The translations under genes were made by a program, and so were the position numbers. Shown here one piece after another: positions 26,740-53,630 of a DNA stretch of 64,000 bases; position 1 is the first letter of the stretch, and each line of letters opens with the position of its first letter. Origin of the DNA: Bradyrhizobium sp. WBAH42 (GTDB lineage Bacteria; Pseudomonadota; Alphaproteobacteria; Rhizobiales; Xanthobacteraceae); assembly GCF_024585265.1 (NCBI RefSeq), contig NZ_CP036533.1, positions 7,573,001 to 7,637,000 on the forward strand, written 5' to 3'. The notes beneath the pieces were generated by a model. That model was not told where the DNA came from. It made no database searches and saw only the letters and a program-made list of their open reading frames with translations.

Positions 26740-26815
26740 GGGCCTGTAGCTCAATGGTTAGAGCCGGCCGCTCATAACGGTCTGGTTGCAGGTTCGAGTC
26801 CTGCCGGGCCCACCA
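26740..26815 (+). tRNA. tRNA-Ile2 (anticodon CAT)
   Basis: A 76-base cloverleaf with encoded CCA. The acceptor arms are GGGCCTG and CGGGCCC. The D arm is GCTC/GAGC, the anticodon stem is GGCCG/CGGTC with loop CTCATAA, and the T arm is GCAGG-TTCGAGT-CCTGC. Anticodon CAT with this body resembles ileX-type tRNA-Ile2, whose C34 becomes lysidine to read AUA, rather than a methionine tRNA. The integrase gene ends 14 bases downstream, so the 3' end of this gene is the likely attachment site of the island. Confidence 0.92.
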
Positions 26816-26829
26816 AAGAAATCAGTGAC

Positions 26830-28083
26830 TTAGGACGAGCCGTTTCGCCTCATCGGGATGACCGCACCAGATATCGCACCAGATACGTGCATCTTTCGTT
26901 CGCCGGCTGGGTCCCGTTTGGCGATCTTCGCGACTGCGTCAGACAAGTAGTCAGGATGATGGTGACCATAGGTGTTGAGCAACACCTCAAGTGACATTCC
27001 AAGATAGCCTGCTGCCTGCCAAGGATCCGCCCCTCTCTGCATGAGCCAAGTCGCTGCGGTATGCCGCAATGTGTGAGGGGAAATGCCTGGTCCAAGCCCC
27101 GCGAGTCTTACGGCACTTTTGAATGCCGTCTTGACTGAGTTAACCGGCTTGCCGTTGTATTCAACGAAATGCTTCGCCTCAGGATCGATTCGATGCCAAC
27201 GCCGCAGGTGAGCAAGCAAGCGCAAGGGAATGGGAACCGTTGGCTGCCGCTTATTGGTCTGCGAGGCCCCCTGCTTCAGACGGTAGTAGCGGCCGCGCTC
27301 CAGATCAACATATGAGCGACCAAGGGCGGGCACAGGAGATGCGGCTGCGATGGCGCCGGCGCGGGTGCCGCTGTAGATTCCCAACAAGATGAAACGAGCA
27401 AGATGCCGGAGTGGACGTTTGCTCGTCGGCAACTTCGTCTCATCCGACGACCGACGTGAACCCTTCTGCATTTCGCGATAGCGCCAACAGGTCCAGATCA
27501 GTTTAGCCGCATCGCTGCGCGTCAACCACTTGTCTCGCGGCTGGCCCTTCTCGGGCAGGGAGACCTTCACGATCTCTCTATGGTATCCCTCGGCTGCATG
27601 GTGGCCGATGGCAGCACGGAGATCTTCCAGGTCGCGGCGAGCCCCACCCTTTCTTTGACGTCTTTTGGTGTAGGACCGGCATGCCTCGCCATTGACTTCG
27701 CCAAGCATTTTTCCGCCCCACCAATCGTTCAGCCGTTCGATCCGCTTCTTGAACTTTCGGATGTCCGAAATGGAGTCTTCGTTTTCGGCGTCGACGCTGA
27801 AGCGACTGCGAAGTTTGTCTAGTTGGGCATCCAAGTAAATCGACAGGACATCCGCAATCGGGATATCGTCTATATGGCGAATTCTTCGCTTTGGTTTGTG
27901 CTTTGAGGTGATGTAGTCCCTTAACTTTTCCTCCGCGGCTGCAATTTCACCTGCAGCGCAGCCTGTGCCGACATCCCGACCGTTGTCTCTGATGATCCAG
28001 GTTGCTTGATGGGTAATCTTTCCATATTTGTTTCGACGGGCGGCTTTGAGCTGAAGTCGAGCCCCCTTGCTTCTCCGCGGCAT
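26830..28083 (-). CDS. int: Tyrosine-recombinase integrase
   Basis: 417-residue site-specific recombinase. The N-terminal arm-binding part (WIIRDNGRDVGTGC) is typical of rhizobial island integrases. The catalytic domain has R in GIYSGTRAGAIAAA, then SPHTLRHTAATWLMQRGADP with the H-x-x-R pair, and the nucleophile tyrosine in LLNTYGHHHPDYL. It appears intact. It lies tail-first against tRNA-Ile2, the usual setup for integration into a tRNA 3' end. Confidence 0.93.
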   Translation of the reverse strand: MPRRSKGARLQLKAARRNKYGKITHQATWIIRDNGRDVGTGCAAGEIAAAEEKLRDYITSKHKPKRRIRHIDDIPIADVLSIYLDAQLDKLRSRFSVDAENEDSISDIRKFKKRIERLNDWWGGKMLGEVNGEACRSYTKRRQRKGGARRDLEDLRAAIGHHAAEGYHREIVKVSLPEKGQPRDKWLTRSDAAKLIWTCWRYREMQKGSRRSSDETKLPTSKRPLRHLARFILLGIYSGTRAGAIAAASPVPALGRSYVDLERGRYYRLKQGASQTNKRQPTVPIPLRLLAHLRRWHRIDPEAKHFVEYNGKPVNSVKTAFKSAVRLAGLGPGISPHTLRHTAATWLMQRGADPWQAAGYLGMSLEVLLNTYGHHHPDYLSDAVAKIAKRDPAGERKMHVSGAISGAVIPMRRNGSS

Positions 28084-38054: not shown

Positions 38055-38620
38055 CTGCCCTTCATCGCTCCGGAGCTCGGGAGGGCGCGGCGAAATTGAG
38101 CTGGTCCTGAAGGGCAAGCTGCCGAAGCTCTTCACCGACGGAGAACCTGCGCGGAATCCTTCACTGCCACGCCGATAACTCGGACGGGATCGAGACCCTG
38201 GAGACGATGGCGAAAAGCGGCGCGCCAGCGCGGACGAGTATTTCGGGGCGCGCAGCAGCATCGAGCAGCCGACCGGCTCAACAAGCGCTTCGGCAAGGGT
38301 TTCCGGCTCCTTAGCGGCATCGAGTCGGACATTCTGGCGGACGGCTCGCTTGACTACGACGACGAGGTGCTTGGACGTTTCGACTTTCGTTGTCGCCAGT
38401 ATCCCCGGGCGCTTCATGCTGGACTGCAAGACACAGACGCAGGGACTGCTTCGGGCCGCTTCCGATCCTCACACGATTATCGTCGGCCACATGACCGGGC
38501 GGCAGCTACAGCGCCACCCTGGTCACGAAATCGACCTGTGCGAAACACGTCGTGGTCGAGATCAACTCACATGCATGGCCTCTTTACCTGGATTGGCGTT
38601 GGCACCACTCGGCGCTTGTC
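38055..38620 (+). pseudogene. polX: DNA polymerase X / PHP domain remnant
   Basis: Fragments in several frames match the rear half of bacterial PolX. They include [43 protein letters not shown] (PHP metal-binding histidines), [47 protein letters not shown], and [20 protein letters not shown]. At least four shifts separate them. The polymerase part is absent. From the family the intact protein is a repair polymerase with 3'-5' exonuclease. Confidence 0.8.
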
Positions 38621-38653
38621 ATCGTCGTGGAACGCGACACCCTTGTGCGGCCG

Positions 38654-38935
38654 TGATTGTGGGGGCTGGTGCGGCCGGCTGCCTACTCGCAAATCGCCTC
38701 TCGGCGGATGATATGGCAACAGGCTGTCTCCTCGAGGCTGCTCCCGTGGACCGCAACCCATTCATTCATGTACCAGCGGGGTTTATCAAAACGCTTCGAT
38801 GCTTCCTCCAACTAGCAATTCAAGACGGATCCGACCGCTCGGACTGGTGGTCGACCTATCTAGACAGCTCAGGGCCGCACGCTAGGAGGCAGTTTGTCGA
38901 TCAACGGCATGGTCTATAACCGTGATCAGTGTCCC
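38654..38935 (+). pseudogene. GMC oxidoreductase N-terminal remnant
   Basis: [20 protein letters not shown] (FAD-binding), [20 protein letters not shown] and, after a gap and frame change, [15 protein letters not shown] (GGSSxINGMxYxRG family motif) mark the front of a choline/glucose dehydrogenase-type flavoprotein. The central spacing is shortened, frames change, and everything after about residue 100 is missing. Confidence 0.8.
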
Positions 38936-39190
38936 ATGAAATTTTGCACAGCCTCGAATGGGCGCTGGCTGAGCGTCGGCGGTGAACCATCGCGTCGCGA
39001 CAGTCTATTCGACGACGTCAATCGTTCTCTAGGTAGCGCCACCTGAGCAAGCGCAGCAGAGTTGACAGTTTGCCCGACAGATCTGCTGGCCGAACCATCG
39101 CCTGACGCTGAACTGGAAACTCGCGGGATTCGAGATGTTTCCGCAGATTGAGGTCAACGGCAAGAGCGGACTTGACTCCCTCGAAGTATT

Positions 39191-39213
39191 AAGTCTAGTT
39201 ATGCAAGTAACAG
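39191..39213 (+). promoter_or_regulatory. Shared operator-like motif, copy A
   Basis: AAGTCTAGTTATGCAAGTAACAG lies 58 bases before the GTG start of the crotonase gene. The same 23-mer with one change is found at 48022-48044 and a looser copy at 48046-48067. It is a candidate site for the tandem HxlR regulator. Confidence 0.65.
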
Positions 39214-39270
39214 GTGAGCCTCGACCTTCGTCGGGTATGCTCAAACCTGTCCCAGCCCAGAGAGGCATTC

Positions 39271-40044
39271 GTGGAGGAAATTCGGGTCGAGCGGCTAGAC
39301 GGCGTTGCGCACGTCGTTCTGAATCGTCCAGCTGTAAGGAATGCCGTAACGCTTGCGATGTGGCGGGAGCTTGCTGACATCTTCTCGAGTTACGCCATTG
39401 ATCGGGATGTCCGCGGCGTGATCCTGCGTGGCTCGGACCGGAACTTCTCCGTCGGCGCGGACATCTCCGAATTCGATCGCATCAGAGAAGACCGTCATCA
39501 GGCGGCTGCCTACGAAGTCGCAGTCGATGCCTGCTCGGGAGCGATTGCTGCACTGGGAAAGCCTGTCGTCGCGGCGATCGATGGCTACTGTCTCGGAGGA
39601 GGCTGCCATCTTGCGCTCGCTTGCGATTTCCGCTTCGCCCATCTCAACGCTATAATTGGCATTCCGTCGGCGAGGCTGTCGATTGTCTACGGAGTTCACA
39701 GTGTGCAGCGCCTGCTCGCACTCACCGGCGTGTCCAACGCCAAGAGGATACTCTATTCGGCAGACCGCTTCGGCGCCGAACAAGCCATTCGGATGGGCTT
39801 GATCGACGAGCTTCACGACGATGTCGTCACGGCCGCGGAGAAGTTCCTGCAACACCTCTCCGGCAATGCACCGCTCTCGATCTCCGGCGCCAAATTCATG
39901 CTGAATGGTCTCACCATGGGCAACGGAGCGCTGGATCTGGCGACAGCACAGCGGCTCGTCGACGAGGCATCCGACAGCGGCGACTTCAAGGAAGGCCGTG
40001 AGGCCTTCGCGCAGAAGAGGACGCCGCGGTTTCGCGGAGAATAG
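39271..40044 (+). CDS. Crotonase-fold protein lacking catalytic glutamates
   Basis: 257-residue enoyl-CoA hydratase/isomerase family member. The CoA-binding core is present (SDRNFSVGADISEF and IDGYCLGGGCHLALACDFRF). The two glutamates used by rat crotonase are not: GGGCE is GGGCH here and the PE of the second motif is PS (IGIPSARLS). It therefore probably does not hydrate enoyl-CoA in the standard way. GTG at 39271, preceded by GAGAGG, is the best start. First gene of the catabolic cluster, 36 bases before the FAD subunit gene. Confidence 0.8.
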   Translation: MEEIRVERLDGVAHVVLNRPAVRNAVTLAMWRELADIFSSYAIDRDVRGVILRGSDRNFSVGADISEFDRIREDRHQAAAYEVAVDACSGAIAALGKPVVAAIDGYCLGGGCHLALACDFRFAHLNAIIGIPSARLSIVYGVHSVQRLLALTGVSNAKRILYSADRFGAEQAIRMGLIDELHDDVVTAAEKFLQHLSGNAPLSISGAKFMLNGLTMGNGALDLATAQRLVDEASDSGDFKEGREAFAQKRTPRFRGE

Positions 40045-40080
40045 GTTGGATGAAGAAAGATCAGGATTTGGAGAGTGCCG

Positions 40081-40950
40081 ATGAAGCCTGCCAAGTTTGA
40101 CTATGTCGCTCCAACGACCGTGGAGGCGGCCGTCGAGGCACTAGTTGCCTCGCACGGAGAGGGAAAGCTGCTCGCCGGAGGGCAAAGTCTATTACCGCTC
40201 CTCAACTTCCGGATGGCCCGCCCTTCGGTTCTGATCGACCTCAACCGCATCGAAGGACTTTCCTATATCAAGGACCGGGGCGATAGCATCGCGATCGGCG
40301 CGCTGACCCGCCATCGTCACCTCGAACATTCGCCAATGACCGCTTCAAAGCTTCCGGTATTGTCGGCCGCAATGCGGCACGTGGCTCATCTGGCTATACG
40401 CAATCGCGGCACAATCGGCGGCAGCTTGTCCCATGCGGATCCCGCCGCCGAACTGCCGATGCTAACGGTATTCTACGATGCAACCATATCAATTCGGGGC
40501 CCGAGCGGGCTCAGGACGGTCGCCGCGGAGGAGTTCTTTGTCGATGCTCTGACAAGTTGCCTAGAGCCCGACGAGATCGTCGTGGAAATCGAATTTCCGG
40601 TCCTCGATCACGACGGGTGGGCATTTGAAGAGGTCGCCCGCCGCTTCGGCGATTTCGCGCTGGCGAGCATCGCTCTGTCCGTTCGTCGCACGGGTGCCAG
40701 GCTTGAGGATGCGCGCATCGCGGTGATGGGAGTGGCCAACACTCCGCTGCGCTTGAAGCAAGCCGAGCGAGAACTCGTTGCATTGCCGCTCGACGAACAG
40801 GCTCCGGAGCTCTTTTCCGAGATCATCGCGTCAGAGGTGTCTCCGAACGACGATGTTCATGCATCGGGTGAGTACCGCACGCACCTCCTGAAAGAGCTGT
40901 CCCGGCGCGCATTGCGCACCGCTCTGATACCGACGGAGCAGGCGGCATGA
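40081..40950 (+). CDS. Molybdenum hydroxylase FAD subunit (CoxM-like)
   Basis: 289-residue FAD-binding medium subunit of the xanthine oxidase/CO dehydrogenase family. It has AGGQSLLPLLNFRMARPSVL (FAD) and TIGGSLSHADPAAELP, the two flavin motifs. GGAG seven bases before the ATG supports the start. It overlaps the next gene by four bases. It carries electrons from the Fe-S subunit to an acceptor. Confidence 0.93.
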   Translation: MKPAKFDYVAPTTVEAAVEALVASHGEGKLLAGGQSLLPLLNFRMARPSVLIDLNRIEGLSYIKDRGDSIAIGALTRHRHLEHSPMTASKLPVLSAAMRHVAHLAIRNRGTIGGSLSHADPAAELPMLTVFYDATISIRGPSGLRTVAAEEFFVDALTSCLEPDEIVVEIEFPVLDHDGWAFEEVARRFGDFALASIALSVRRTGARLEDARIAVMGVANTPLRLKQAERELVALPLDEQAPELFSEIIASEVSPNDDVHASGEYRTHLLKELSRRALRTALIPTEQAA

Positions 40951-41426
40951 CAGAGATCTCGGTGAAAGTGAACGGAGAGCGCTACGACATTACTGACGTC
41001 GAGCCGCGCATGCTGTTGTCTGACTTCTTGCGCGACCGACTAGGTCTCACCGGAACGCATGTCGGGTGCGAGCATGGTGTCTGCGGAGCCTGTACCATCC
41101 TTGTGAACGGCGACAGCGCGCGCGCCTGCTTGATGTTGGCAGTCCAGACCGATGGTGCCGAAATTGTAACAGTCGAGGGACTGGGGTCGGCCGAAGAACT
41201 AAACGTCCTTCAATCGCAGTTCCGCGAGCATCACGGGCTTCAGTGCGGCTATTGCACGCCCGGTATGCTGATGACCGGTGAGGACCTGCTTCGAAAGTAT
41301 CCTCTAGCTACCGATGAGGACATCCGGGAGGGGCTTTCCGGAAATCTTTGCCGTTGTACGGGCTATCAGAACATTGTGGCCGCGATCCGCAGCGCCGCCA
41401 CTATGCGCGCAGGGAAAAAGTCATGA
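40947..41426 (+). CDS. Molybdenum hydroxylase 2Fe-2S subunit (CoxS-like)
   Basis: 159-residue small subunit with both 2Fe-2S clusters: the plant-type CEHGVCGACTILVNG and the helical pair CGYCTPGM and NLCRCTGYQNI. It relays electrons from the molybdenum site to FAD. It overlaps both neighbours by four bases, so M, S and the MBL gene are translationally coupled. Confidence 0.95.
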   Translation: MTEISVKVNGERYDITDVEPRMLLSDFLRDRLGLTGTHVGCEHGVCGACTILVNGDSARACLMLAVQTDGAEIVTVEGLGSAEELNVLQSQFREHHGLQCGYCTPGMLMTGEDLLRKYPLATDEDIREGLSGNLCRCTGYQNIVAAIRSAATMRAGKKS

Positions 41427-42184
41427 AGTTGAACTTCCTCGCCGCCGGGCGCCTTCGGATGAAGAAGAGTATCTACGTGGCCGGCGCAGAGCGGAGCGAG
41501 ACGATCGATCTCTCGGTCAGCAGCGCGCTGGTTCGGCATAAGCAGGGCAATGTGCTGTTCGATACCGGATGTCATCCGTCCGTCGTCACCGACGCTGAGG
41601 GTCGTTGGGGCCCGCTCGCAAAGGTCATGAAGCCGATGATGCGAGAGGATGAGACACTGCTGCCAAGCCTGGCATGCACGGGCCTCGGGCCGGATGACAT
41701 CGACATCGTCGTCAACTCGCACTTTCATCCGGATCATTGCGGTTGCAATCAGTTCTTCCGCAAGGCGACAATTCTCGCACATGCCAAGGAGATCGAAGCG
41801 GCGAAGGCGCCTGGCGCAGACGCCGCAGGATACCTCAGAGCCGACTGGGATTACGGACAGCCGATCGAGCCAGTAAACGGAGAGAAAGATGTCTTCGGCG
41901 ACTCTAGTCTGGTTCTGCTTCCGCTGCCGGGCCACACGCCGGGGACGATGGGAGCGCTCGTCAATTTGGATAAGGATGGGCAGTTCCTGCTCGCCTCGGA
42001 TGCCGTCAGCCTGCGCCAGAACCTCGATGCTGACGCGGCCCCCCGCAACACTTGGAACGTCGAACAGCAGTTGAAGACGTTTGCGGAGGTTCGCCGGATC
42101 GAGAAGTCCGGTGCAACGGTGATCTGCGGACACGACGATGCGCAATGGCAAGGCTTGCGCAAAGGCGGCGACAGCTATGAATAG
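41423..42184 (+). CDS. Metallo-beta-lactamase-fold lactonase-like protein
   Basis: 253-residue hydrolase. The zinc motif is HFHPDHCG (HxHxDH), followed by LPGHTPGTMG and CGHDD for the remaining ligands. It resembles the N-acyl-homoserine lactonase family, which includes Agrobacterium BlcC/AttM, a gamma-butyrolactone lactonase. It starts by ATGA overlap with coxS and overlaps the large subunit gene by eight bases, an unusual placement that ties it to the Mo-enzyme reaction. I infer it opens a lactone made by, or entering with, this pathway. Confidence 0.85.
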   Translation: MKLNFLAAGRLRMKKSIYVAGAERSETIDLSVSSALVRHKQGNVLFDTGCHPSVVTDAEGRWGPLAKVMKPMMREDETLLPSLACTGLGPDDIDIVVNSHFHPDHCGCNQFFRKATILAHAKEIEAAKAPGADAAGYLRADWDYGQPIEPVNGEKDVFGDSSLVLLPLPGHTPGTMGALVNLDKDGQFLLASDAVSLRQNLDADAAPRNTWNVEQQLKTFAEVRRIEKSGATVICGHDDAQWQGLRKGGDSYE

Positions 42185-44573
42185 AGATCATCGCCCCAAC
42201 CCCTCCGACGTGCAGTGCCCGAAAAAAGTCGGCGCGCCGATAAGGCGCACCGAGGATCCACGCCTGCTCGCGGGAAGCGGTGAATACGCCGCCGATCGAA
42301 AGCTGGATCGGCCGTTGCATATCGCCTTCCTACGCAGCGCCCAAGCGCATGCCAGACTTGTGCGGGTCGACACGTCTGCCGCCCTGGAAGCGCCGGGTGT
42401 CGTGGCGGTGCTGACCGCGGAGGAGATAGCCGGCGATTTCAAGCCGGTCATCCCATTCTCTCGGATGGCGAACTACTACGCGACGCCGATTCTGCCGCTC
42501 GCCTCCGGAAAAGTCCGTTATGTTGGAGAGGCCGTCGCCGCCGTCGCCGCCACCTCGCGCTACCTGGCCGAAGATGCGATCGAATTGATCGACGTCGACT
42601 ACGAACGTCTGGAGCCGGTCGCGCGCCCGGAAGCGGCGGTCGCGGAAGGTGCGGCTCTGCTCCACGAAGAGGCTGGGACGAACGTCCTGATCGCCCGCGA
42701 GTTCAAGAAGGGGGACGTCGAAGCCGGTCTGGCTGGCGCCGCGGTGAGGGTGGGTGGGCGTTTCGAGATGACTCGAAAGGCGGCGCTTGCGATGGAGCCG
42801 CGCAGCTATGCTGCCGAATACGAGAAGCGAAGAGATGCGCTCACGCTCTACACGTCCTCGAACATCCCAGGCATCATCCGCGATGCCATCTCGGAATCGC
42901 TCTCGCTTCCAGGACATCGCCTGAGGGTGGTCGCCCCCGACGTCGGTGGCAGCTTCGGGTCGAAAGGCTCGCTGTATGCGGAGGAGCTTCTGATCTGCAT
43001 CGCCGCACGCAAGCTGCGCCGATCGATCAAATGGACGGCGGACCGGCTCGAAGACATCAGCAGTAGCAGTCAGGCTTTTGCCGAGATCGTTGACGCCGAA
43101 ATGGGCTTCGACGTGAACGGCATGGCTACCTCGCTGCAAGCAGACGTGATCGGCGACGTCGGCGCCTTTTCCATCTATCCGTGGACTTGCGGCCTGGAGC
43201 CCGTGCAGGTCGTCAGCTTTCTGCCCGGCCCCTACAAGATACAATCATATCGTGGCGCGGTTCGCGGTGTAGCGACTTGCAAGCCGCCGACCGGACCCTA
43301 CCGAGGTGTTGGCCGGCCGGTTTCGACCTTCGTTTGCGAGCGTCTGATGGACATGGGCGCCAAGGCACTGGGGATCGATCCACTCGAGATCAGGCGCCGC
43401 AACATGGTGCGGGCTGAAGAATTCCCATACCGGATCGCGTCCGGCATCATTTGGGACAAGACCGGCTTTGTCGACTGCTTGGAGGCTGCCGCCGAGGCAG
43501 CGGGCTACGATCAGCTTCGAAAGCAACAGTCCGAGGCCCGCAAACGTGGGCGACTTTTCGGGATTGGCATCGCTTCATACGCGGAACTGACCGGCATCGG
43601 CTCACGTATAGCGGTCGCGCCAGGCATGCCGATCAATACGGGCTCGGAAACGGCGAAGATCACGATCGATTCGACCGGAGGCATCACCGCAGCGTTTGGC
43701 GTCGCCTCCCATGGCCAGGGCCTCGAGACAACTTTGGCGCAGATCGTTGCCGACGACCTCGGTGCGCGCTTCGAGGACATTCGCGTCATTCAAGGTGATA
43801 GCGACGAGGTCCCGATGTCGACCGGGACGTACGCCAGCCGCAGCGCGGTGCTCGGCGGTGGTGCCGCGAAGCATGCCTCAGAGATCCTGAAGGGCAAGAT
43901 CAAGAGGGTGGCATCGCATCTCCTGGAAGCTAACGCGGATGACCTCGAAGTCTCCGAGGGAATGGTGACTGTACTCGGCACCGATCGCACAGTGTCTTTC
44001 AAGCAGATTTCCAAGGCCGTCTATTCCGACATGAAGACCTTGCCGGTCGATGCGCGGGAAGAGCTGACTGCGAGCTACACCTACGATCCAGTCAATGGCA
44101 CAACCGCGGCGGCAACCCACATCGCGGCGGTCGAGATCGATCCGGCGACGTGCTTCGTAAAGATCAACAAGTTTGTCGTCGCCGAGGATTGTGGCCGCAT
44201 CATCAATCCGATGATCGTGGATGGTCAGGTCCACGGGGGCGTCGCACAGGGCATCGGTGCCGCGCTGTTCGAGGAACTCATCTACGATGACGATGGCCAA
44301 CTTCTCAGCGCGAGCCTTGTCGACTACGTGATTCCGTCGGCCCCGGAAGTGCCGATGATGGATGTCGTCCACGTCGAAAGCGAGTCTGCGGTGGCGGGCG
44401 GGTTCCGCGGTATGGGCGAAGGCGGCACAATCGGTGCGCCGGCGGCGATCGCCAACGCTATCGCCGACGCGCTATCGCCCCTCGAGATTGATGTCTCGAT
44501 CCTTCCAATGACCCCGGAACGCATCTTCAGGCTTATCCAGAACGCCAAGTTCAGAGCAAAGGGAAAATCATGA
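42177..44573 (+). CDS. Molybdenum hydroxylase large subunit (CoxL-like)
   Basis: 798-residue catalytic subunit of the xanthine oxidase family. It shows GAPIRRTEDPRLLAG at the front, VAPDVGGSFGSKG, PTGPYRGVGRP in the active-site loop, and GMGEGGTIGAPAAIANA with the catalytic glutamate. The CO dehydrogenase signature AYRCSFR is absent, so it oxidises an organic substrate, unknown from sequence. Related three-subunit enzymes hydroxylate heterocycles and CoA esters such as 2-furoyl-CoA. The start at 42177 overlaps the MBL gene. Confidence 0.93.
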   Translation: MNRDHRPNPSDVQCPKKVGAPIRRTEDPRLLAGSGEYAADRKLDRPLHIAFLRSAQAHARLVRVDTSAALEAPGVVAVLTAEEIAGDFKPVIPFSRMANYYATPILPLASGKVRYVGEAVAAVAATSRYLAEDAIELIDVDYERLEPVARPEAAVAEGAALLHEEAGTNVLIAREFKKGDVEAGLAGAAVRVGGRFEMTRKAALAMEPRSYAAEYEKRRDALTLYTSSNIPGIIRDAISESLSLPGHRLRVVAPDVGGSFGSKGSLYAEELLICIAARKLRRSIKWTADRLEDISSSSQAFAEIVDAEMGFDVNGMATSLQADVIGDVGAFSIYPWTCGLEPVQVVSFLPGPYKIQSYRGAVRGVATCKPPTGPYRGVGRPVSTFVCERLMDMGAKALGIDPLEIRRRNMVRAEEFPYRIASGIIWDKTGFVDCLEAAAEAAGYDQLRKQQSEARKRGRLFGIGIASYAELTGIGSRIAVAPGMPINTGSETAKITIDSTGGITAAFGVASHGQGLETTLAQIVADDLGARFEDIRVIQGDSDEVPMSTGTYASRSAVLGGGAAKHASEILKGKIKRVASHLLEANADDLEVSEGMVTVLGTDRTVSFKQISKAVYSDMKTLPVDAREELTASYTYDPVNGTTAAATHIAAVEIDPATCFVKINKFVVAEDCGRIINPMIVDGQVHGGVAQGIGAALFEELIYDDDGQLLSASLVDYVIPSAPEVPMMDVVHVESESAVAGGFRGMGEGGTIGAPAAIANAIADALSPLEIDVSILPMTPERIFRLIQNAKFRAKGKS

Positions 44574-45319
44574 CTGATCTCAAGGGACGTATAGCGCTGG
44601 TCACGGGAGGCGGCCGCGACGTTGGGGCTGCTATCTGCAAGATGCTGGCGGAACGTGGCGCGTCCGTCGCAGTCAATTACCACAGTTCGAACGTGGATGC
44701 AGAAGGAGTCGTCGCTGAGATCGAAAGGACCGGCGGAAAAGCAAAAGCCTATCAGGCCGACATCGCTGATCCGACCGTCGTCAAGAAGATGATCGCCGAC
44801 ATCAAGAACGACTTCGGCGGCCTAGATATTCTTGTCAACAACGCCGGCCTGGTATTCCGAAAGAAGTTCACTGAGAGCACGCCGGAGGACTGGAAGAAGC
44901 AGGTCGACACCTGTCTTTACGGCGCATTAAACTGCTCGCATAGCGCCGGGCCGCTGCTTGAGACTTCGGGCCGTGGACGCATCATCTCGATCATGGGCGA
45001 CTCCTCCCGCGTCGGCGAATCCGGGCTCGCGATCGGCGCAGCCGCGCGCGCCGGAACGATCGCGCTGATGAAATCGCTCGCTCGCGAGTGGGGTCGTTCG
45101 GGCGTTACCGCGAATTCGATCTCGCTTGGTCTGATCGAGACCGCACACGACAAGGCCTGGGTCGACGCCAATCGCGACAAACTGGTCAAGGCCTACGCCA
45201 TTCGTCGCCTGGGCCTGCCATCGGATGTGGCTCCCCTCGTAACTTTGCTCGCCTCGGACGCCGGCGCCTGGATTACCGGCCAGGTAATCAGCGTGAACGG
45301 CGGATATTCGATGGTCTGA
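44570..45319 (+). CDS. SDR-family protein without the YxxxK motif
   Basis: 249-residue Rossmann protein of the FabG-like class. The cofactor motif TGGGRDVGAAI and the NNAG motif (ILVNNAGLVF) are present, and the end (GAWITGQVISVNGGYSMV) is classical. The catalytic stretch, usually YSASK, reads GAAAR (GLAIGAAARAGTIALMKSLA), so both the tyrosine and lysine are lost. It is coupled to coxL by an ATGA overlap. It may bind NAD(P) and act by another mechanism, or be inactive. Confidence 0.85.
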   Translation: MTDLKGRIALVTGGGRDVGAAICKMLAERGASVAVNYHSSNVDAEGVVAEIERTGGKAKAYQADIADPTVVKKMIADIKNDFGGLDILVNNAGLVFRKKFTESTPEDWKKQVDTCLYGALNCSHSAGPLLETSGRGRIISIMGDSSRVGESGLAIGAAARAGTIALMKSLAREWGRSGVTANSISLGLIETAHDKAWVDANRDKLVKAYAIRRLGLPSDVAPLVTLLASDAGAWITGQVISVNGGYSMV

Positions 45320-45330
45320 GGGAGGCGGCG

Positions 45331-46875
45331 ATGCTCAATGTCGATCTAATCGCACCTATCGCGAGGCTCATGGAGCGTCAGGCGAAAAGCCGACCGGAGC
45401 AGGTGGCGTATTGGGCTTCGGCGCGGTCAATCACCTACGCACAACTCGCCGACCGTACCGCCTCAATCGCTGCGAACCTGACGAGGGCAGGGTTGAAGGA
45501 GGGCGACAGGCTCGCGGTGTACTTGCCGAATGGGGTGAACTGGATCGAAGCCTGCTTCGCTGCGTTGCGGGCCGGGGCCGTTGTGGTGCCGATCAGCTTT
45601 GATGCAGCCGAGGGGGAGGTCAGCTATCGTCTGACCGACGCCGACTGCGGTATTATCGTCACAGCGGGTGCCCGAAAGGACCTGCTGGAAAAGATCTGTC
45701 GGGACGCGAGTATCTCGCCGACAGTGATCTTCGCTGGGCCGGACGCCGGTGGAGCCGGAGTATCTATGGAGGATCTCGCTAAGGCGCATGGCGCGGCGTC
45801 GCTCGATCCGGCGGACATCGATCGATCTTCGTTTATCATCTACACGTCAGGAACGACGGCACGGGCAAAGGGCGTGCTGCTGTCGATCCGCGGTATGCTG
45901 TGGATTTCGGCAGCGTGCTGGGCGCCGATCGCCGAATTGACGAGCGAGGACGTGATCCTATCGCCGCTTCCACTCTTCCATTCCTATGGTCTGAACCTCT
46001 CGGTTCTTGGTGTGCTTGCAGTCGGCGCCAGTGAGCACACCATGGAGCGCTTCTCGCCGCAGCATGCGCTCGAACTGCTCCAGACCGGCAAATATTCGGT
46101 CATGCCGGGCGTGCCAACGATGTTTCACTACCTTTTGCTCCGCGCGCATGAGGCCGGCATCGAGCGTTTGGGAGCCGTGCGCCTGTGCATCTCGGCAGGC
46201 GCGATCATGCCCGCAACCTTGAACAAGGCGTTCGAGGAACGCTTCAAGACGCGGCTTCTCGACGGATACGGTATCACCGAGACATCTACGATGGTGACCA
46301 TGAACTGGCTGCACGGCGGCAGGCCGATGGGATCGTGCGGCCTTCCGGTGCCCGGCCTCGCGGTCCGCATCGTCGATCCGTCCTCGCTGGAGGACGTCCC
46401 GATCGGCGAGGAAGGCGAACTGATCGTCCGCGGGCCGAACCTCATGCACGGCTATCACAACAAGCCTGCGGAAACTGCTTCGGCGCTGCGCAAGGGTTGG
46501 TATCATACCGGCGATCTCGCGAAATCGGACCGGTCGGGCTATCTGACGATCACCGGCCGGATCAAAGAACTGATCATTCGCGGCGGTCTGAACATTTCGC
46601 CGGCCGAGATCGAGGAAGTGGTCGTGAAGCACCCCCAGGTCAGGGATTGCGCCGTCGTCGGGATGCGGCACGCGACATTAGGCGAAGTGCCGTGCCTCTT
46701 CGTTGTCCCGAAGGATGAGGCTCTCGACGTCCCCGCGCTGCTGGAGCATTGCAGAGCGCATCTCTCCTCATACAAGATCCCGGAATCCACACATCTCGTC
46801 GGAGAAATTCCGCGCACGGGGTCTGGCAAAATCATGCGCTTCAAGCTCGTCGAGGCCTTGAGCGCCCAGGCTTGA
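45331..46875 (+). CDS. AMP-forming acyl-CoA synthetase
   Basis: 514-residue ligase with the P-loop IIYTSGTTARAKGV, DGYGITETS, the GWYHTGDL motif, and the C-terminal catalytic lysine in GSGKIMRFK. It activates a carboxylic acid to its CoA ester in the cytoplasm; the substrate is not readable. The start at 45331 has GGGAGG upstream. It ends the first operon, 11 bases after the SDR gene, and fits a role of preparing the acid for the dehydratase at 49384 and the crotonase. Confidence 0.92.
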   Translation: MLNVDLIAPIARLMERQAKSRPEQVAYWASARSITYAQLADRTASIAANLTRAGLKEGDRLAVYLPNGVNWIEACFAALRAGAVVVPISFDAAEGEVSYRLTDADCGIIVTAGARKDLLEKICRDASISPTVIFAGPDAGGAGVSMEDLAKAHGAASLDPADIDRSSFIIYTSGTTARAKGVLLSIRGMLWISAACWAPIAELTSEDVILSPLPLFHSYGLNLSVLGVLAVGASEHTMERFSPQHALELLQTGKYSVMPGVPTMFHYLLLRAHEAGIERLGAVRLCISAGAIMPATLNKAFEERFKTRLLDGYGITETSTMVTMNWLHGGRPMGSCGLPVPGLAVRIVDPSSLEDVPIGEEGELIVRGPNLMHGYHNKPAETASALRKGWYHTGDLAKSDRSGYLTITGRIKELIIRGGLNISPAEIEEVVVKHPQVRDCAVVGMRHATLGEVPCLFVVPKDEALDVPALLEHCRAHLSSYKIPESTHLVGEIPRTGSGKIMRFKLVEALSAQA

Positions 46876-46888
46876 TCCGCGCGCGCAT

Positions 46889-47929
46889 TCAGTCGACGGA
46901 GCGCGGACCAAGCGCGCCAAAGGATTTCGGATCGTAGGCGAGACGATACCGCATGTCTGCGGCCACGATCGGCGTCTTGCACCGATCGCAATCGACGACA
47001 GGATCAAAGTCGTGGCCGCACTTGATGTGCGTGAGGATAAGGGGCGGCTTTCCCTTCGAAAGCCAGCGATCACCCCATCTCAGCATGGCGATGAAGGAAC
47101 CGTAAAGCTCTAAACCCATGTCCGTTAGCAGGTATTCGTAGCGGTCGGGAGAAGTTTGATAGCGTCTCCGTCGGAGCACTCCCCTGGCGACCAAGCGATT
47201 CAACCGATCAGTCAGGATATTGGGTGCGATTGCGAGCTCGTTGAGAATCTTGTCGTAGCGCCGGTTGCCGAAGAATCCCTCCCGGACGACCATAAAGCTC
47301 CATTTGTCGCCGATGATCTCAAGGGCGCGAGATACGGAGCTGGGGCGACCGAGCATGAACCGGCTTCCATCCGAAGGGCGCCTTGTATTACGACCAGCTT
47401 TCGCGGGACTGCGGCCGGCACCAGGTCCATCGCGGTATTTCGCGTCGCGCGCCGAGATGCTTTCGCCGCAATGGGAGCACGTGACGATCGGGTGACTTTC
47501 GCAGCCGCAGGTCGCGTGGACAAGCGTCAGTGGAGGCGGCTTGCCTTTGGACAGCCAACGGTCTCCGAACTGCATGAGCGCAATAAAGCTCGGATAGAGA
47601 TCGAAGCCCATTTTCGTCAGTCGGTACTCCTTCCTCTGTGACGAGCCAGGCGCAACTTGGCGGAAGATCCCGAGCTGCGTCAGTTTTTTCAGCCGATCGG
47701 TCAGAGTGGCCCGCGGAATGCCAAGCGCCGATCGAAAGGCTTCAAAGGTCTGAGTTCCAAAAAATGCCTCGCGGATGATCAGGAAAGCCCATGCGTCCGA
47801 GACGATGTCCAACGTGCGAGCGACAGAGCAGTTGCGCTCCGTTCGTCCAGCGGCAGTACGGGCAGCAGTGGGTGCCGTCTTGGACTTGGCCGATGTTCTG
47901 GACGTTTGGAGCTTAGCGGCGACAGGCAT
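46889..47929 (-). CDS. Tandem HxlR-family regulator
   Basis: 346-residue protein with two HxlR winged-helix domains in one chain. The first has NCSVARTLDIVSDAWAFLII and TLTDRLKKLTQLGIFRQV; the second has SVSRALEIIGDKWSFMVVRE and ILTDRLNRLVARGVLRRR. Each is followed by a zinc-ribbon-like segment (HATCGCESHPIVTCSHCG; HIKCGHDFDPVVDCDRC). HxlR proteins normally dimerise as about 110-residue units; here a covalent dimer is encoded. It is divergent from the binding protein gene and next to two operator-like copies, so it likely controls both operons and itself. Confidence 0.9.
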   Translation of the reverse strand: MPVAAKLQTSRTSAKSKTAPTAARTAAGRTERNCSVARTLDIVSDAWAFLIIREAFFGTQTFEAFRSALGIPRATLTDRLKKLTQLGIFRQVAPGSSQRKEYRLTKMGFDLYPSFIALMQFGDRWLSKGKPPPLTLVHATCGCESHPIVTCSHCGESISARDAKYRDGPGAGRSPAKAGRNTRRPSDGSRFMLGRPSSVSRALEIIGDKWSFMVVREGFFGNRRYDKILNELAIAPNILTDRLNRLVARGVLRRRRYQTSPDRYEYLLTDMGLELYGSFIAMLRWGDRWLSKGKPPLILTHIKCGHDFDPVVDCDRCKTPIVAADMRYRLAYDPKSFGALGPRSVD

Positions 47930-48021
47930 TCCGACGGTCCGTTTCGCACAGCCGCCACGACCGGACAGCCCTGAAAGTTGCGCACCTGTAGCACATCGCG
48001 CGATTGACTCGTTGAAAAAAT

Positions 48022-48067
48022 AAGTCTAGTTATGCATGTAACAGCAGTCTAGTTATGATAGTAAGAG
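48022..48067 (+). promoter_or_regulatory. Shared operator-like motif, copies B and C
   Basis: AAGTCTAGTTATGCATGTAA (48022-48041, continuing CAG) and AGTCTAGTTATGATAGTAAG (from 48046) are tandem copies with a 23-base period, close to two helical turns. They lie in the gap between the tandem HxlR gene and the binding protein gene, and copy B differs from copy A at 39191 by a single base. Confidence 0.7.
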
Positions 48068-48099
48068 CGGGATTGGAAACCAAATGCGGGAGGCGTGTC

Positions 48100-49324
48100 A
48101 TGAAGGGTAGAGTGAATAGCGGCCTGATCGCGGCGGCAACGATTCTGACGGTGAGCGTCGGCGCCGGTGCTCAGACCGTTACAATCTCGGACAATGTCGT
48201 GAAGATCGGCGTGCTGACGGACATGTCCGGTCAATTCTCGCACGAGTCGGGCGAAGGCGCGGTGACTGCGATCAAGATGGCTGTCGAGGATTTCGGGGGC
48301 AAAATCCTCGGAAAACCGATTCAGGTCATTGTCGCCGATCATCAGAACAAGCCCGACACGGCCTCCGCATTGGCGCGCAAATGGTTCGATGTTGAGAAGG
48401 TTGACATGATCGGGAACCTGATCAATTCCTCAATCGCACTTACCGTTTCCGGGCTTGCGAAGGACAAGAACCGGATTGCCATCATCAACGGCTCCGGATC
48501 TTCTCGTCTGACTGGCGATGCGTGCACGCCGAACAGCATACACTACTCTTATGATACCTACGCGCTCGCGCGCGGAACCGGCGCTGCGCTGGCGAAGGAA
48601 GGAAAGAAGTCCTGGTACTTCCTGACCGCGGACTATGCGTTCGGGCACGCCCTCGAAGCCGACACTTCCGCTGTCGTGAGGGCAATGGGTGGTGAGGTCG
48701 TCGGATCGACACGATACCCGCCTGAGTCGTTCGATCAGTCCTCGTACCTGCTCCAGGCGCAATCGTCGAAAGCCCAGGTTGTTGCACTAGCCGGATCGGG
48801 CAACGTACTGGTCAACTCAATCAAGTCCGCGCAGGAATTTGGAATTCAACAACGCCAAACGCTGGCTGGCCTGCTCGTTTGGGAAACTGACATTAAGGCC
48901 CTTGGCCTTTCGGCCGCTCAGGGTCTGGTATTGACGAACGCATTTTACTGGGACCGCGACGATGAGACGCGCGCATGGTCGAAGCGGTTCTTCGAAAAGA
49001 TGAAGGTGATGCCGCACATGGGTGATGCCGGCGACTATTCGTCGCCTGAGCTTCGTCCGTGCCGGCCGCTTCGACCGCGCGCAGGTAGTGCATGGTCCAG
49101 TCATGAAAAAAATGCGCGAAATGCCCGTGAATGACTTCTTCGCCAAAAACGGACGTATTCGAGAGGATGGCCGCATGGTGCACGACATGTACGTATACGA
49201 AGTCAAGAAGCCGTCGGAATCGAAGGGGGATTGGGATTTCTACAGGCTCCGCGAAGTGATTCCGGGCGATCAGGCGTTCCGTCCGCTCAAGGATAGCGCC
49301 TGCCCGATCGTGAAGAAAGGTTGA
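48100..49324 (+). pseudogene. Branched-chain type binding protein with a micro-inversion
   Basis: Binding protein with a signal peptide (MKGRVNSGLIAAATILTVSV) and mature start VTISDNVVKIGVLTDMSG. It aligns with the intact homologue at 22949. After GDAGDYSS (49044) the plus strand is nonsense, but the minus strand of 49043-49096 encodes TMHYLRAVEAAGTDEAQA, exactly the 18 residues expected at this place. From 49100 the homology resumes (VMKKMREMPVNDFFAKNG) to the stop at 49322, in a frame shifted by one base. A block of 54 bases has therefore been inverted in place. GGGAGG before the ATG is a good ribosome site. Confidence 0.85.
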
Positions 49325-49383
49325 GCGAGGAGAGCCGGTTCGAACCCGTGTGCGTCATGGCTCAAACTCAAGGAGGCATCTCG

Positions 49384-50935
49384 ATGGATCAGGAAGTTGT
49401 GGCGGCGAGATCTGGAGTTGCGAACCCGATCCGCAGTGCGAGCCGAATATGTCGAGAGCCTCCGCGGACGTAGATTGACAGTCTATTTGATGGGCGAGCT
49501 GGTCGATGAACCGGTCGATCACCCCATGATCCGGCCGTCGATCAATGCGGTGGCAAGAACCTACGATCTTGCAAATGAGGACCCCGCCCTCGCGTCAGCA
49601 GTGTCACCGATCACGGGCGGCAACGTCAACAGGTTCCACCATATCTCCACCAGCTCTGCCGATCTTGTGATGCAGAACAAGATGCAGCGCCGTCTTGGAC
49701 AACTCACGGGTACCTGCTTTCAGCGTTGTGTGGGCATGGATGCACTAAACTCACTGCACTCGGTAACCTACGATTTGGACGGAAAGTACGGCACCCAATA
49801 CCACGCGCGATTTATACAGTTCCTCGCGCGCATACAGGCCCTGAACCTGGTCATCGGAGGGGCAATGACCGATGTCAAGGGAGATCGCGGTCGCTCGCCT
49901 TCACAGCAGTCGGATCCAGACCTGTTCCTGCACGTCATCCGTCGAACTGCGGAAGGCATTTTCGTCCGAGGAGCGAAAGCGCATCAAACCGGGTGCTTAA
50001 ACTCGCATTGGCTGATCGTTATGCCAACAATGAGATTGGAGGCGGCCGACAAGGATTACGCAATTGTCGGCGCGATCCCGGTCGATGCTGCGGGCATCAC
50101 CTACATTTACGGCCGGCAGTCCTGTGATACCCGAAGCACCGAAGGCGGAGATATCGACGCAGGCAACGCTCAATTCGCCGGCCAGGAGGCGATGATCATC
50201 TTTGAGGATGTCTTCATTCCCAATGAGCACATTTTCCTGGATGGGGAGGTCGAATTTGCCTCGACGCTCGTCGAGCGCTTTACCTGCTATCACCGCCGTA
50301 GCTACGTCTGCAAAACGGGAGTGGGCGATGTCCTGATCGGTGCTGCAGCAACCATTGCTGACTACAACGGTGTCGATCGCGCATCGCATATCCGCGACAA
50401 GCTCGTCGAGATGACCCATCTCAACGAGACGATCTACGGCACAGCCATTGCCGCGAGCAATCAAGGAATCGAGATGAAATCCGGTGCTTTCTTGCCGGAT
50501 GAGATGCTCGCGAACGTCTGCAAGCATCATGTCACGCGGTTACCTTACGAGATCGGCCGATTGGCGCAGGATCTCGCTGGGGGGCTGATGGTGACGCTGC
50601 CGTCCGAGCGCGAGCTCAGGCACGAGAAGATCGGTCCGATGATCGAGAAATATCTGAAGGGGCGAGCTGAGATCGCAACGGAAGACCGGATTCGCATCCT
50701 TCGCCTGGTCGAAAACATGACTCTCGGAAGGAACGCTGTGGGCTATCTGACTGAGTCCATGCATGGTGCCGGCTCGCCGCAAGCACAGCGTATCCAGATC
50801 GCCCGATCCATGCAGATCGAGCTCAAGAAGGAACTGGCCAAAGCGCTCGCTGGCATTTCTTCCACGACGCGGGCAGAGATCGAGAACGACCTATCGACTT
50901 ACATGGCCAGAGTCTTTGCGCCTGTTACCAACTGA
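49384..50935 (+). pseudogene. abfD: 4-hydroxybutyryl-CoA dehydratase homologue (AbfD/HpaB family)
   Basis: About 515 codons, homologous along its length to AbfD of clostridia and archaea. It has VYLMGE, CFQRCVGMDA (two of the 4Fe-4S cysteines), GAKAHQTG, IYGRQSCDTR and TESMHGAGSPQAQR. The histidine and last cysteine lie in CYHRRSYVCK; spacing is six residues, one less than I recall for H292-C299 in Clostridium. The strong ribosome site AAGGAGG (49370-49376) and ATG at 49384 start the frame MDQEVVAARSGVANPIRS. An extra base at about 49441 shifts it, so the conserved frame (AEYVESLRGRR) is open only from a TTG at 49397. Known AbfD makes crotonyl-CoA from 4-hydroxybutyryl-CoA by a ketyl-radical route. 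Confidence 0.82.
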
Positions 50936-50977
50936 GCCCACAGAAGCGGGCCGATCTCGGCGATTTCGGATACATCA

Positions 50978-51419
50978 ATGGCAATGACAATGAACGGGGA
51001 AATCCTGCTCGCCGCCTCGCGAGAAGTTGTCTGGACCAAATTGAACGATCCCACCGTCTTGAAGGCCTGCATTCCCGGATGCGAAGAGTTGGAGAGGAGC
51101 GATGGGGAGGGGTTTCGGGCCATTGCAAAGATGAAGGTGGGACCTGTTTCGGCGCGATTTCAGAGGCAGGGTTACTCTAAACGATCTCGATCCGCCGAGA
51201 AGCTATACTATCGTTGGCGAGGGTGAGGGCGGCGTCGCGGGCTTCGCGAAGGGTGGCGCAAAAGTCAGCCTGCTCGAGCGGGATGATGGCACGCTCTTGA
51301 CCTATCACGTCGACGCGCAGATTGGTGGAAGGCTTGCGCAGTTGGGACAGCGGCTTGTCCACCGAACGGCTAAGAAGCTCGCCGACGAGTTCTTCGCCAA
51401 TTTTGCCCGAGCACTTTAG
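50978..51419 (+). pseudogene. CoxG/SRPBCC-family protein, frameshifted
   Basis: The front MNGEILLAASREVVWTKLND, LKACIPGCEELE and AKMKVGPVSARF is CoxG-like (PGCexle motif). One inserted base at about 51161 shifts the frame; the other frame continues GRVTLNDLDPPRSYTIVGEG, GGVAGFAKGGAKVSL, ending LADEFFANFARAL. CoxG proteins help assemble or anchor molybdenum hydroxylases at the membrane. It fits the coxMSL genes upstream, but it is broken here. Confidence 0.82.
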
Positions 51420-51561: not shown

Positions 51562-52284
51562 TCAGGGTAGAAGGAGGGTCACCGCGATCGGGACCAAGAA
51601 CGACGTCACAAGCGCGTTCAGGCCCATGGCAATCCCGGAGAAAACGCCGGCCACCTCGTCGACTTGAAACGCCCGTGCTGTGCCGATGCCGTGTGCGGCG
51701 ATGCCGACCGCGAAACCACGGGCGCGAAAATCGGTAATGGCGGCCCGGTTCATGAGGGGCGTGACGATGATGGCTCCCAGGATCCCGGTGAGTACAACCG
51801 AGACAGCGGTCAGGGACGGATCGGCGTGCAGGGATTCGCTGATTCCCATGGCCACGCCGGCTGTAACTGATTTTGGCGAAAGCGATAGGATAACTGATCG
51901 AGGCAGACCGAAGGCCTCGGCTAACAGTACGACCGTAATGATCGCGGTAATCGAGCCAACTACCAGCGAAACCAACATTGGCAGAAGCGCAGCGGTGACC
52001 CGTGCCCGGTTGTCGTAGAGTGGGATCGCGAGCGCAACCGTCGCTGGCCCGAGAAGAAAGTGCACGAACTGGGCGCCCGCGAAGTATGTGGTGTACGTAG
52101 TGTCCGTGACGATCAAGAAAGCGCCGATGATCCAGATCGAGTGCAATACAGGATTTGCCAGCGGATGCCGGTGCGTCGTAAGCGAGATAGCGTCCGCGAT
52201 GGCGTAAATCGAGAGCGTTACGGTGAGCCAAAGCAGAGGGGACTGCGAGAGGTAGACCCACAGCGAGAATGAGTTTTCGCTCAT
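51562..52284 (-). CDS. lrgB: LrgB/CidB family membrane protein
   Basis: 240-residue protein with seven or eight hydrophobic helices. It has the LrgB motifs LLGPATVALAIPLYDNR, LSPKSVTAGVAMGISE and AAHGIGTARAF. Together with LrgA it belongs to a holin-antiholin-like pair; in plants and bacteria related proteins export glycolate, glycerate or pyruvate. It overlaps lrgA by four bases. Confidence 0.9.
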   Translation of the reverse strand: MSENSFSLWVYLSQSPLLWLTVTLSIYAIADAISLTTHRHPLANPVLHSIWIIGAFLIVTDTTYTTYFAGAQFVHFLLGPATVALAIPLYDNRARVTAALLPMLVSLVVGSITAIITVVLLAEAFGLPRSVILSLSPKSVTAGVAMGISESLHADPSLTAVSVVLTGILGAIIVTPLMNRAAITDFRARGFAVGIAAHGIGTARAFQVDEVAGVFSGIAMGLNALVTSFLVPIAVTLLLP

Positions 52285-52667: not shown

Positions 52668-52824
52668 GCGAGGCGCTCGACGGTGGCCAAACTGGGCTCA
52701 ATCAGGCTTGCATGAGTATTTTGCCGGCAAGACGGATGCGAGGTCGATGTGAGAAAGCTCAGCCGTATGGCAGAAACAGGCCTACCGGGCCCGAGCTGTG
52801 CCTGAATCGAGGTTGCCACAGGCG

Positions 52825-53535: not shown

Positions 53536-53630
53536 GGGTCGCTCGCAACTCTAATTTTCTGCCGTCGCAAGCCAAGCGAACACATAAGCCGCTAGGCGAC
53601 CAGCCCAAACCACCGAACATCCACAACGTA

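Follow-up and report, generated by a model that had tools for sequence, protein, structure and literature searches.

Genes of the cluster

The 64,000-bp stretch of Bradyrhizobium sp. WBAH42 analysed here (G000:C1:7573001-7637000, henceforth the window) is part of a genome of 8.29 Mb in one contig and contains a gene cluster that includes a homologue of AbfD, the 4-hydroxybutyryl-CoA dehydratase. Seven core genes on the plus strand encode a crotonase-fold protein, the CoxM- and CoxS-like subunits of a molybdenum (Mo) hydroxylase, a metallo-beta-lactamase-fold (MBL) hydrolase, the CoxL-like subunit, a short-chain dehydrogenase/reductase (SDR)-fold protein and an acyl-CoA ligase. A regulator gene separates them from a second unit composed of the genes for a substrate-binding protein (SBP), AbfD and CoxG (Table 1). 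All genes named in a preliminary description of this DNA are found at 39.2-51.4 kb in the order it gave. Likewise, the MBL gene lies, as described, inside coxMSL and overlaps its neighbours on both sides, by 4 bp with coxS and by 8 bp with coxL. Gene starts were fixed by eye and from relatives.

Table 1. Predicted genes and sites in the window (coordinates in the window).
Feature	Coordinates	Strand	Remarks
Predicted island edge	26740..28083		tRNA-Met 26740-26815 (+) beside integrase-like ORF 26830-28083 (-); GC shift; integrase by eye
Predicted promoter and operator of core operon	39172..39213	+	TTGACT 39172-39177, 18 bp, TAGTTA 39196-39201 within GTCTAGTTATGCAWGTAACAG 39193-39213
Crotonase-fold protein	39271..40044	+	His and Ser replace the two catalytic Glu; no canonical hydratase
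CoxM-like FAD subunit of Mo-hydroxylase	40081..40950	+	
CoxS-like 2x[2Fe-2S] subunit	40947..41426	+	
MBL hydrolase, AiiA/AttM kin	41423..42184	+	Zn ligands conserved; Ser196 in place of the lactonase Tyr
CoxL-like Mo-binding subunit	42177..44573	+	Loop PYRGVGR; catalytic Glu kept
SDR-fold protein	44570..45319	+	No Ser-Tyr-Lys triad (Gly143, Gly156, Arg160); conserved GDSSRxGE motif
AMP-forming acyl-CoA ligase	45331..46875	+	
Transcription regulator, two HxlR domains	46889..47929	-	Predicted operator binder
Predicted promoter before SBP	48004..48067	+	Two operator copies (48024-48044; weaker 48047-48067), 23-bp period
SBP promoter boxes		+	TTGACT 48004-48009, 17 bp, TAGTTA 48027-48032
Peripla_BP_6 SBP	48100..49324	+	Frameshifted near residue 315 of 408
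AbfD, 4-hydroxybutyryl-CoA dehydratase homologue	49384..50935	+	First 18 codons in different frame
CoxG homologue	50978..51419	+	Frameshifted near residue 61 of 146; compared with annotated CoxG of L172

Active sites and enzyme identities

The identification of AbfD as such is borne out by comparison with solved structures. It scores highest against the vinylacetyl-CoA isomerase 6vjr (783 bits), followed by 1u8v (583 bits), a dehydratase/isomerase of the 4-aminobutyrate pathway, and reaches at most 138 bits with HpaB-type hydroxylases. When aligned with 1u8v and 6vjr, C107, C111, H299 and C305, which we take to be the Cys, Cys, His and Cys ligands of the [4Fe-4S] cluster, are kept in 23 of 23 loci. 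Both the scores and the cluster ligands rule out a 4-hydroxyphenylacetate hydroxylase, the name given in databases. On the strength of its sequence, AbfD is predicted to dehydrate 4-hydroxybutyryl-CoA. The nearest kin of the window AbfD are found in Bradyrhizobium (B. agreste AbfD, 91% identity).

CoxMSL belong to the xanthine-oxidase family of Mo-hydroxylases, with three subunits, the active-site Glu and the Mo loop. Glu749 of CoxL is kept in 47/47 sequences, and the loop PYRGVGR is found in the 46 rows that cover it, four of which have Ala for one Gly. Form I aerobic CO dehydrogenase is ruled out by this loop, the corresponding motif being, as we assume, AYXCSFR. The best solved relative of CoxL is quinoline 2-oxidoreductase (550 bits), which favours a hydroxylation beside a ring heteroatom.

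Three further proteins lack the catalytic residues that their folds would lead one to expect. In the crotonase-fold protein, the positions presumed to hold the two catalytic Glu, which are also visible in the aligned row of the solved 5z7r, are occupied by His (first) and Ala or Ser (second) in all 51 relatives, and the protein does not classify as a canonical enoyl-CoA hydratase. In the SDR, an alignment with solved FabG-type reductases reveals Gly143 in place of Ser and Arg160 in place of Lys in 56 of 56 sequences, and Val, Ala, Gly or Thr at the Tyr position 156. Provided that Ser-Tyr-Lys (YxxxK) are the catalytic residues, as we assume, it is not a classical SDR dehydrogenase. The MBL protein is closest to N-acyl homoserine lactone (AHL) lactonases among solved structures, and its dinuclear Zn ligands (HxHxDH, His, Asp, His) are kept in 66/66 loci. 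The lactonase Tyr, in our assignment Tyr194 of AiiA three residues past the metal Asp and visible in the solved 9khq and 2r2d rows, is gone in all 66 and replaced by Ser in 61. These changes are conserved replacements. The preliminary description had read a lactonase, a hydratase and a dehydrogenase from the folds; with the Tyr, both Glu and the Ser-Tyr-Lys triad missing, the folds do not justify these assignments.

Conservation of the cluster

A scan with AbfD kept 80 of 124 confirmed loci with 10-kb flanks, among them 18 titled Bradyrhizobium. The full order from crotonase to AbfD is present in 13 of these 18, the start of the crotonase gene being clipped by the 10-kb flank. A fourteenth locus (L016) is clipped at a contig end, and the full order was not found in L013, L018, L020 and L022. 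On plasmid pS15H of B. elkanii from a soybean nodule, the whole set is annotated as separate open genes. This means that the gene cluster is real and not a product of chance, and that intact syntenic versions, for which a search had been suggested, do exist.

Of 195 genomes from the genus, 23 encode an MBL protein of at least 70% identity; 16 of the 23 have AbfD on the same contig at a distance of about 8 kb (in G106 as a fragment only). Matches at E 1e-60 or better occur in 43 of 296 family genomes, distributed over 17 of 47 genera, and in 4 of 385 class genomes including the own genome. At E 1e-20, MBL relatives appear in 169 plasmid records, in 163 of them with less than 60% identity.

A second locus type (L137, L152, L158, L167) comprises MBL, SDR and a more distant CoxMSL, without a ligase or crotonase of the core type. 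Because these loci keep just these three, MBL, SDR and CoxMSL probably act together. In L018, L094, L095, L148, L154, L165 and L168, MBL occurs in clusters with acyl-CoA dehydrogenases. L018 (4700-11539, Bradyrhizobium sp. dw_411) combines relatives of AbfD, SBP, crotonase and MBL with two acyl-CoA dehydrogenases and has no CoxMSL nearby; it is perhaps another variant of the pathway. A further CoxMSL-AbfD association is found in an uncultured alphaproteobacterium (L062, 1430-9408), where a glyoxalase/dioxygenase-fold protein is accompanied by relatives of CoxMSL (51-71%) and AbfD (74%) and by a different MBL protein.

AbfD and the genes found in its place in relatives

A locus was considered a core locus when its MBL, ligase, SDR and crotonase proteins all exceeded preset identities. 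Of 75 mapped loci, 58 qualify; the remaining 17 are L016, L137, L148, L149, L152, L154, L156, L158, L159, L160, L165, L167-L171 and L188, some of them excluded because the contig or record ends. L013, L018, L020, L022, L062, L092, L094, L095, L097-L101, L104, L176 and L178 stayed outside the mapping as AbfD/MBL loci of other make-up, partial loci or repeats of used genomes; L019 and L164 are one and the same locus. The frameshifted AbfD of the window was counted as AbfD.

Within the core loci, the genes that could process the product of the core occur in two main combinations. AbfD alone is present in 17 loci, and an alcohol dehydrogenase (ADH), a thioesterase and a succinate semialdehyde dehydrogenase (SSADH) are found together in 16; only L166 carries all four. 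Altogether, AbfD occurs in 19 and ADH in 20 of the 58 loci, with L166 as the only overlap (Fisher p 7e-4, kinship ignored). The thioesterase accompanies ADH in 20 of 20 loci and AbfD in 2 of 19 (Fisher p 5e-5, kinship again ignored), and 17 of the 20 ADH loci have both thioesterase and SSADH. Since every ADH locus has the thioesterase and AbfD loci seldom do, a CoA ester is suggested as the shared input of both exits. A branch point at 4-hydroxybutyryl-CoA would fit either. SSADH and ADH are absent from the locus in the window; in the 17 core loci that have both, their identities were assigned by homology alone. In addition, L156 (65%) and L160 (53%, below the genome-wide AbfD threshold) have AbfD matches beside CoxMSL, MBL, SDR and ligase, with no match to the crotonase.

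The genome-wide view is similar. AbfD is encoded in 23 of 57 genomes. ADH at 76% identity or more is found in 10 of the 57, always inside the locus, and co-occurs with AbfD only in G695. ADH proteins from the loci of Rhizobiaceae and Aminobacter are 56-59% identical to that of L093. The L093 genome, G066, has no AbfD; in the same strand run, L093 carries an iron-containing ADH, a 4HBT-type thioesterase and an SSADH that exceeds the NCBIfam GabD cut-off (838.9 vs 828) and scores 760 bits with the solved NADP-dependent SSADH 3jz4. In L093, L141, L145, L147, L150, L151, L153, L162 and L166, the three genes have the same orientation as those for crotonase, SDR and ligase. Furthermore, they are situated side by side in the core of the annotated loci L173, L174, L175, L183, L184 and L186 on named plasmids of Aminobacter, Rhizobium and Agrobacterium. 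On Sinorhizobium chiapasense pB, ADH and thioesterase are present and no SSADH is annotated. The Rhizobium and Agrobacterium loci (L174, L175, L183, L184), in contrast to those of Aminobacter, additionally contain genes for adenylate kinase and XdhC, which would be expected with an AMP-forming ligase and a Mo enzyme.

AbfD itself is present at the locus in more than one form. In a tree of 90 rows, AbfD of Bradyrhizobium groups with proteobacterial kin, and AbfD from L155, L156 and L166 is placed elsewhere together with L152, L099 and L100. A tree constrained to unite all core AbfD in one group is worse by 371 log-likelihood units (p-AU 5e-28; calculated for 36 of the 90 rows, with the group chosen after the first tree had been seen). 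Hence, AbfD at this locus comprises two lineages.

A promoter element shared by both units

The sequence GTCTAGTTATGCAWGTAACAG has two exact copies, one preceding the core operon (39193-39213) and one preceding the SBP gene (48024-48044), and a weaker third copy follows at 48047-48067. At up to 3 mismatches, the 21-bp pattern, which was drawn from the window itself, has 3 matches in the window and none in 100 shuffles. At each exact site, TAGTTA lies 17 or 18 bp 3' of TTGACT. Among close relatives, the element is conserved before the SBP gene in 18/18 scanned, with and without AbfD, and before the crotonase gene in the 10/10 whose upstream stretch was covered. It is also kept in L087, L088, L132 and L133, all of which lack AbfD. 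As both transcription units share this conserved promoter element, they likely form one regulon. From its position, the double-HxlR protein is the candidate that would bind the element. Such a single-chain double-HxlR regulator travels with the locus into Rhizobiaceae (L175:1664-2650).

Proposed pathway and alternatives

The reading that we consider the most plausible, and to which we give rather more credence than doubt, is that the core makes 4-hydroxybutyryl-CoA from a probably ring-shaped acid, and that this ester leaves via AbfD or, in relatives, via thioesterase, ADH and SSADH, under likely co-regulation. We infer each reaction, the branch point, the co-regulation and the order of steps from the genes and their conservation. 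The acid would be imported by a Liv-type ATP-binding cassette (ABC) system and activated with CoA by the ligase. CoxMSL would then hydroxylate it beside the ring heteroatom, and MBL might open the ring hydrolytically, aided by the SDR and crotonase-fold proteins. At the AbfD exit, 4-hydroxybutyryl-CoA would be converted to crotonyl-CoA, destined for beta-oxidation or poly-3-hydroxybutyrate. At the other exit, the thioesterase would release 4-hydroxybutyrate, which ADH would oxidize to succinate semialdehyde and SSADH to succinate for the tricarboxylic acid cycle. As the substrate, we favour an O-heterocycle, perhaps furan-like, that is opened hydrolytically; this is the weakest part of the proposal. 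Routes for 3-furoate, cyclopropanecarboxylate, tetrahydrofuran acids and pyridines were also weighed as conceivable alternatives. The alternative exit modules point to a branch metabolite ahead of any biochemistry.

Several observations weigh against this proposal. The ring-opening steps, where it is weakest, rest on folds with altered catalytic residues, so that the upstream chemistry differs from what these folds suggest. Thirteen of the 58 core loci have no exit gene in the stretch read, although in L163 AbfD follows 1.2 kb beyond it and L096 has an AbfD fragment. Incomplete or mixed sets exist as well: AbfD plus thioesterase in one locus (L164), ADH with the thioesterase but no full SSADH in three, and thioesterase without ADH or AbfD in seven, alone in four and with SSADH in three. 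The locus counts are not independent since the loci are related by descent and transfer. ADH relatives at 56-62% identity are encoded elsewhere in the AbfD-bearing genomes G034, G047, G120 and G157. The ADH belongs to a broad family; among NCBIfam and PDB entries it matches ErcA, sulfoacetaldehyde reductase and methanol and propanediol dehydrogenases best, and it reaches only 253.7 bits with the 4-hydroxybutyrate dehydrogenase model (cut-off 500). Finally, the 21-bp element was not found at up to 4 mismatches in L173, L174, L175 and L179.

A bolder version goes further. Here, a hitherto undescribed rhizobial pathway would open a plant-derived O-heterocycle by means of a Mo-hydroxylase, a lactonase without its tyrosine, a crotonase without its glutamates and an SDR without its triad. 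AbfD, plugged in at least twice, would channel 4-hydroxybutyryl-CoA into crotonyl-CoA and storage polymer and away from succinate. We offer this version tentatively and think it on the whole unlikely. If it were true, the plug-in AbfD would link 4-hydroxybutyrate in nodules to poly-3-hydroxybutyrate.

The route proposed in the preliminary description ran from a gamma-lactone made by CoxMSL to a 4-hydroxy acid (MBL) and its CoA ester (ligase), followed by dehydration by AbfD and beta-oxidation by crotonase and SDR. The relationship of MBL to AHL lactonases with its 66/66 Zn ligands, the cluster ligands of AbfD, and the SSADH and ADH of relatives, which suit a C4 4-hydroxy acid, are in its favour. 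The residues in the three altered proteins (no crotonase Glu in 51 sequences, Gly143/Arg160 in 56/56 SDRs and no Tyr in 66/66 MBL proteins) speak against it. Moreover, 39 of the 58 core loci have crotonase, SDR and ligase without AbfD in the stretch read, so these three do not serve the AbfD product alone, and a core built around AbfD is not supported. As a whole, this route appears improbable. What remains of it is the 4-hydroxy acid: a C4 compound is probable, for ADH, thioesterase and a GabD-type SSADH replace AbfD, and the substrate and the order of reactions are, as before, inferred.

To a similarly small degree, we reckon with a core product that is not C4, in which case AbfD, ADH, thioesterase and SSADH would be mobile neighbours gathered on islands and plasmids and not parts of one pathway. 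This would agree with the location of the loci on plasmids, several of them typed as conjugative, and in a predicted island, and with the 13 core loci without an exit gene nearby. However, the shared element connects the SBP-AbfD unit to the core, ADH, thioesterase and SSADH lie on the core strand in nine loci and within the core on annotated plasmids, and two AbfD lineages are present at the locus.

Much less probable is a role in quorum quenching, that is, the degradation of AHLs or another signal lactone. MBL is automatically annotated as belonging to the N-acyl homoserine lactonase family in plasmid records and matches the NCBIfam AttM model with 136.9 bits, but this is far below the cut-off of 390, the lactonase Tyr is replaced, and the Mo-hydroxylase and the CoA ligase would have no obvious role. 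That AbfD marks CO2 fixation by the 3-hydroxypropionate/4-hydroxybutyrate cycle, as suspected for Bradyrhizobiaceae in the accessible part of PMC4195664, where their AbfD is grouped with suspected autotrophs, is, judged by AbfD and its surroundings, hardly credible: 6vjr is its nearest solved structure, but AbfD shares operator and neighbours with a transporter and a catabolic gene set, oxidative genes replace it in relatives, and the window copy is the only one in the own genome.

Relation to known systems and significance

Elsewhere, AbfD has been described in anaerobic fermentation and in CO2 fixation by archaea. The unusual setting pointed out earlier is supported insofar as the locus, which also encodes a Mo-hydroxylase, a CoA ligase and a protein of the lactonase fold, looks catabolic and not autotrophic. 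We take 1u8v to be the clostridial AbfD. With this enzyme of the clostridial 4-aminobutyrate/4-hydroxybutyrate fermentation, the AbfD studied here shares the cluster ligand positions and the predicted conversion of 4-hydroxybutyryl-CoA to crotonyl-CoA. It differs in its rhizobial host, in the Mo-hydroxylase and ABC import at the locus and in its higher score with 6vjr than with 1u8v.

The 2-furoate pathway HmfABCDE employs a CoA ligase, a three-subunit Mo-hydroxylase and a crotonase-fold hydrolase that opens the furan. Compared by description and not by sequence, our cluster has the same three types of protein and adds MBL, the SDR and a C4 exit. 2-Furoate should yield 2-oxoglutarate. An identity with this pathway, although chemically attractive, was rejected since, going by the description of Hmf, its product is not a C4 compound.

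For the gamma-butyrolactone route of BlcABC/AttKLM, we presume the enzyme classes usually assigned to it. As far as the available part of PMC4313370 describes this Agrobacterium system, it resembles our loci in a lactonase-fold MBL protein, an alcohol dehydrogenase and an SSADH, which lead from 4-hydroxybutyrate to succinate. Again by description and not by sequence, our loci differ in the additional Mo-hydroxylase, CoA ligase, crotonase-fold and SDR proteins, in the thioesterase of relatives, in an MBL protein without the lactonase Tyr and in the AbfD that Bradyrhizobium has where relatives have ADH and SSADH. The same excerpt reports six R. leguminosarum isolates that use gamma-hydroxybutyrate without att genes and states that the genes of their pathway are unknown. 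Since the core is found together with ADH and SSADH on R. leguminosarum pPR1, we regard the locus as a candidate for this att-less use.

The GhbD/poly-4-hydroxybutyrate (P4HB) locus of Sinorhizobium meliloti HM006 (PMC12636752, a preprint, in the part available) likewise involves 4-hydroxybutyrate and its CoA ester as proposed rhizobial intermediates and an iron-containing dehydrogenase. By description, it differs in that succinate semialdehyde is proposed to be the starting material of a polymer there. In the annotated stretches of the relatives' loci inspected, none of the genes bears the name of a polyhydroxyalkanoate synthase. According to the same part of the preprint, succinate semialdehyde (SSA) and 4-hydroxybutyrate (GHB) occur in nodules, and the diversion of succinate semialdehyde to 4-hydroxybutyrate stopped nitrogen fixation in one host. 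Because of these reports, the exit carried by a strain could matter for symbiosis. In addition, AbfD of Bradyrhizobium gains a testable catabolic role where CO2 fixation had been suspected (PMC4195664, in the part accessible). No paper on this cluster was found in a literature search from which subscription journals were mostly absent.

Apparent decay, a probable island and neighbouring genes

The seven core genes and the regulator gene are open in this strain. Decay had been hinted at before, and indeed the SBP and CoxG genes are each broken across two frames; of the 518 codons of AbfD, the first 18 are in another frame. These frameshifts may be apparent decay or sequencing errors; the AbfD exit is probably impaired in this strain. 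AbfD is in a single frame in 10 of 11 relatives compared. The exception is L096 (15496-16289), where a deletion fuses AbfD (to residue 172) to CoxG (from residue 34), a separate loss of AbfD. Among the same relatives, CoxG is broken in L005 and unmatched in L008. On R. phaseoli pRetR611c (L178, 13889-16500), an annotated MBL gene is surrounded only by pieces of coxM, coxS and coxL. On a plasmid of R. leguminosarum bv. trifolii TA1 (L189, 9001-13454), what looks like a remnant of the same locus consists of ADH, a short thioesterase and a nucleotidyltransferase together with a split XdhC. Decay of the locus seems to be frequent.

Near 26-28 kb of the window, the GC content changes from about 0.66 to 0.58-0.60, and a tRNA-Met gene adjoins an ORF that, judged by eye, resembles a tyrosine-recombinase integrase. 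Because of this combination, the cluster is probably housed in an integrated island. A reading as symbiosis-island genes is unsupported as nifH is about 0.68 Mb distant, although plasmids of nodule strains carry the loci of relatives. The interval from the integrase to the cluster (29999-38919) contains fragments that, by eye, resemble transposase, aldehyde-dehydrogenase and GMC-oxidoreductase genes, as in a decaying island.

The region 3' of the cluster (51562-63060) encodes LrgA/LrgB-like proteins, a GntR regulator and a transporter of the sugar ABC type (names taken from L172). Further 3', and judged by eye, there are three aldo-keto reductase genes, another gene of the MBL fold (60062-60910) and a BKACE-like gene. 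In L004, L009, L011, L096 and L172, too, the cluster is followed by the first part of this block.

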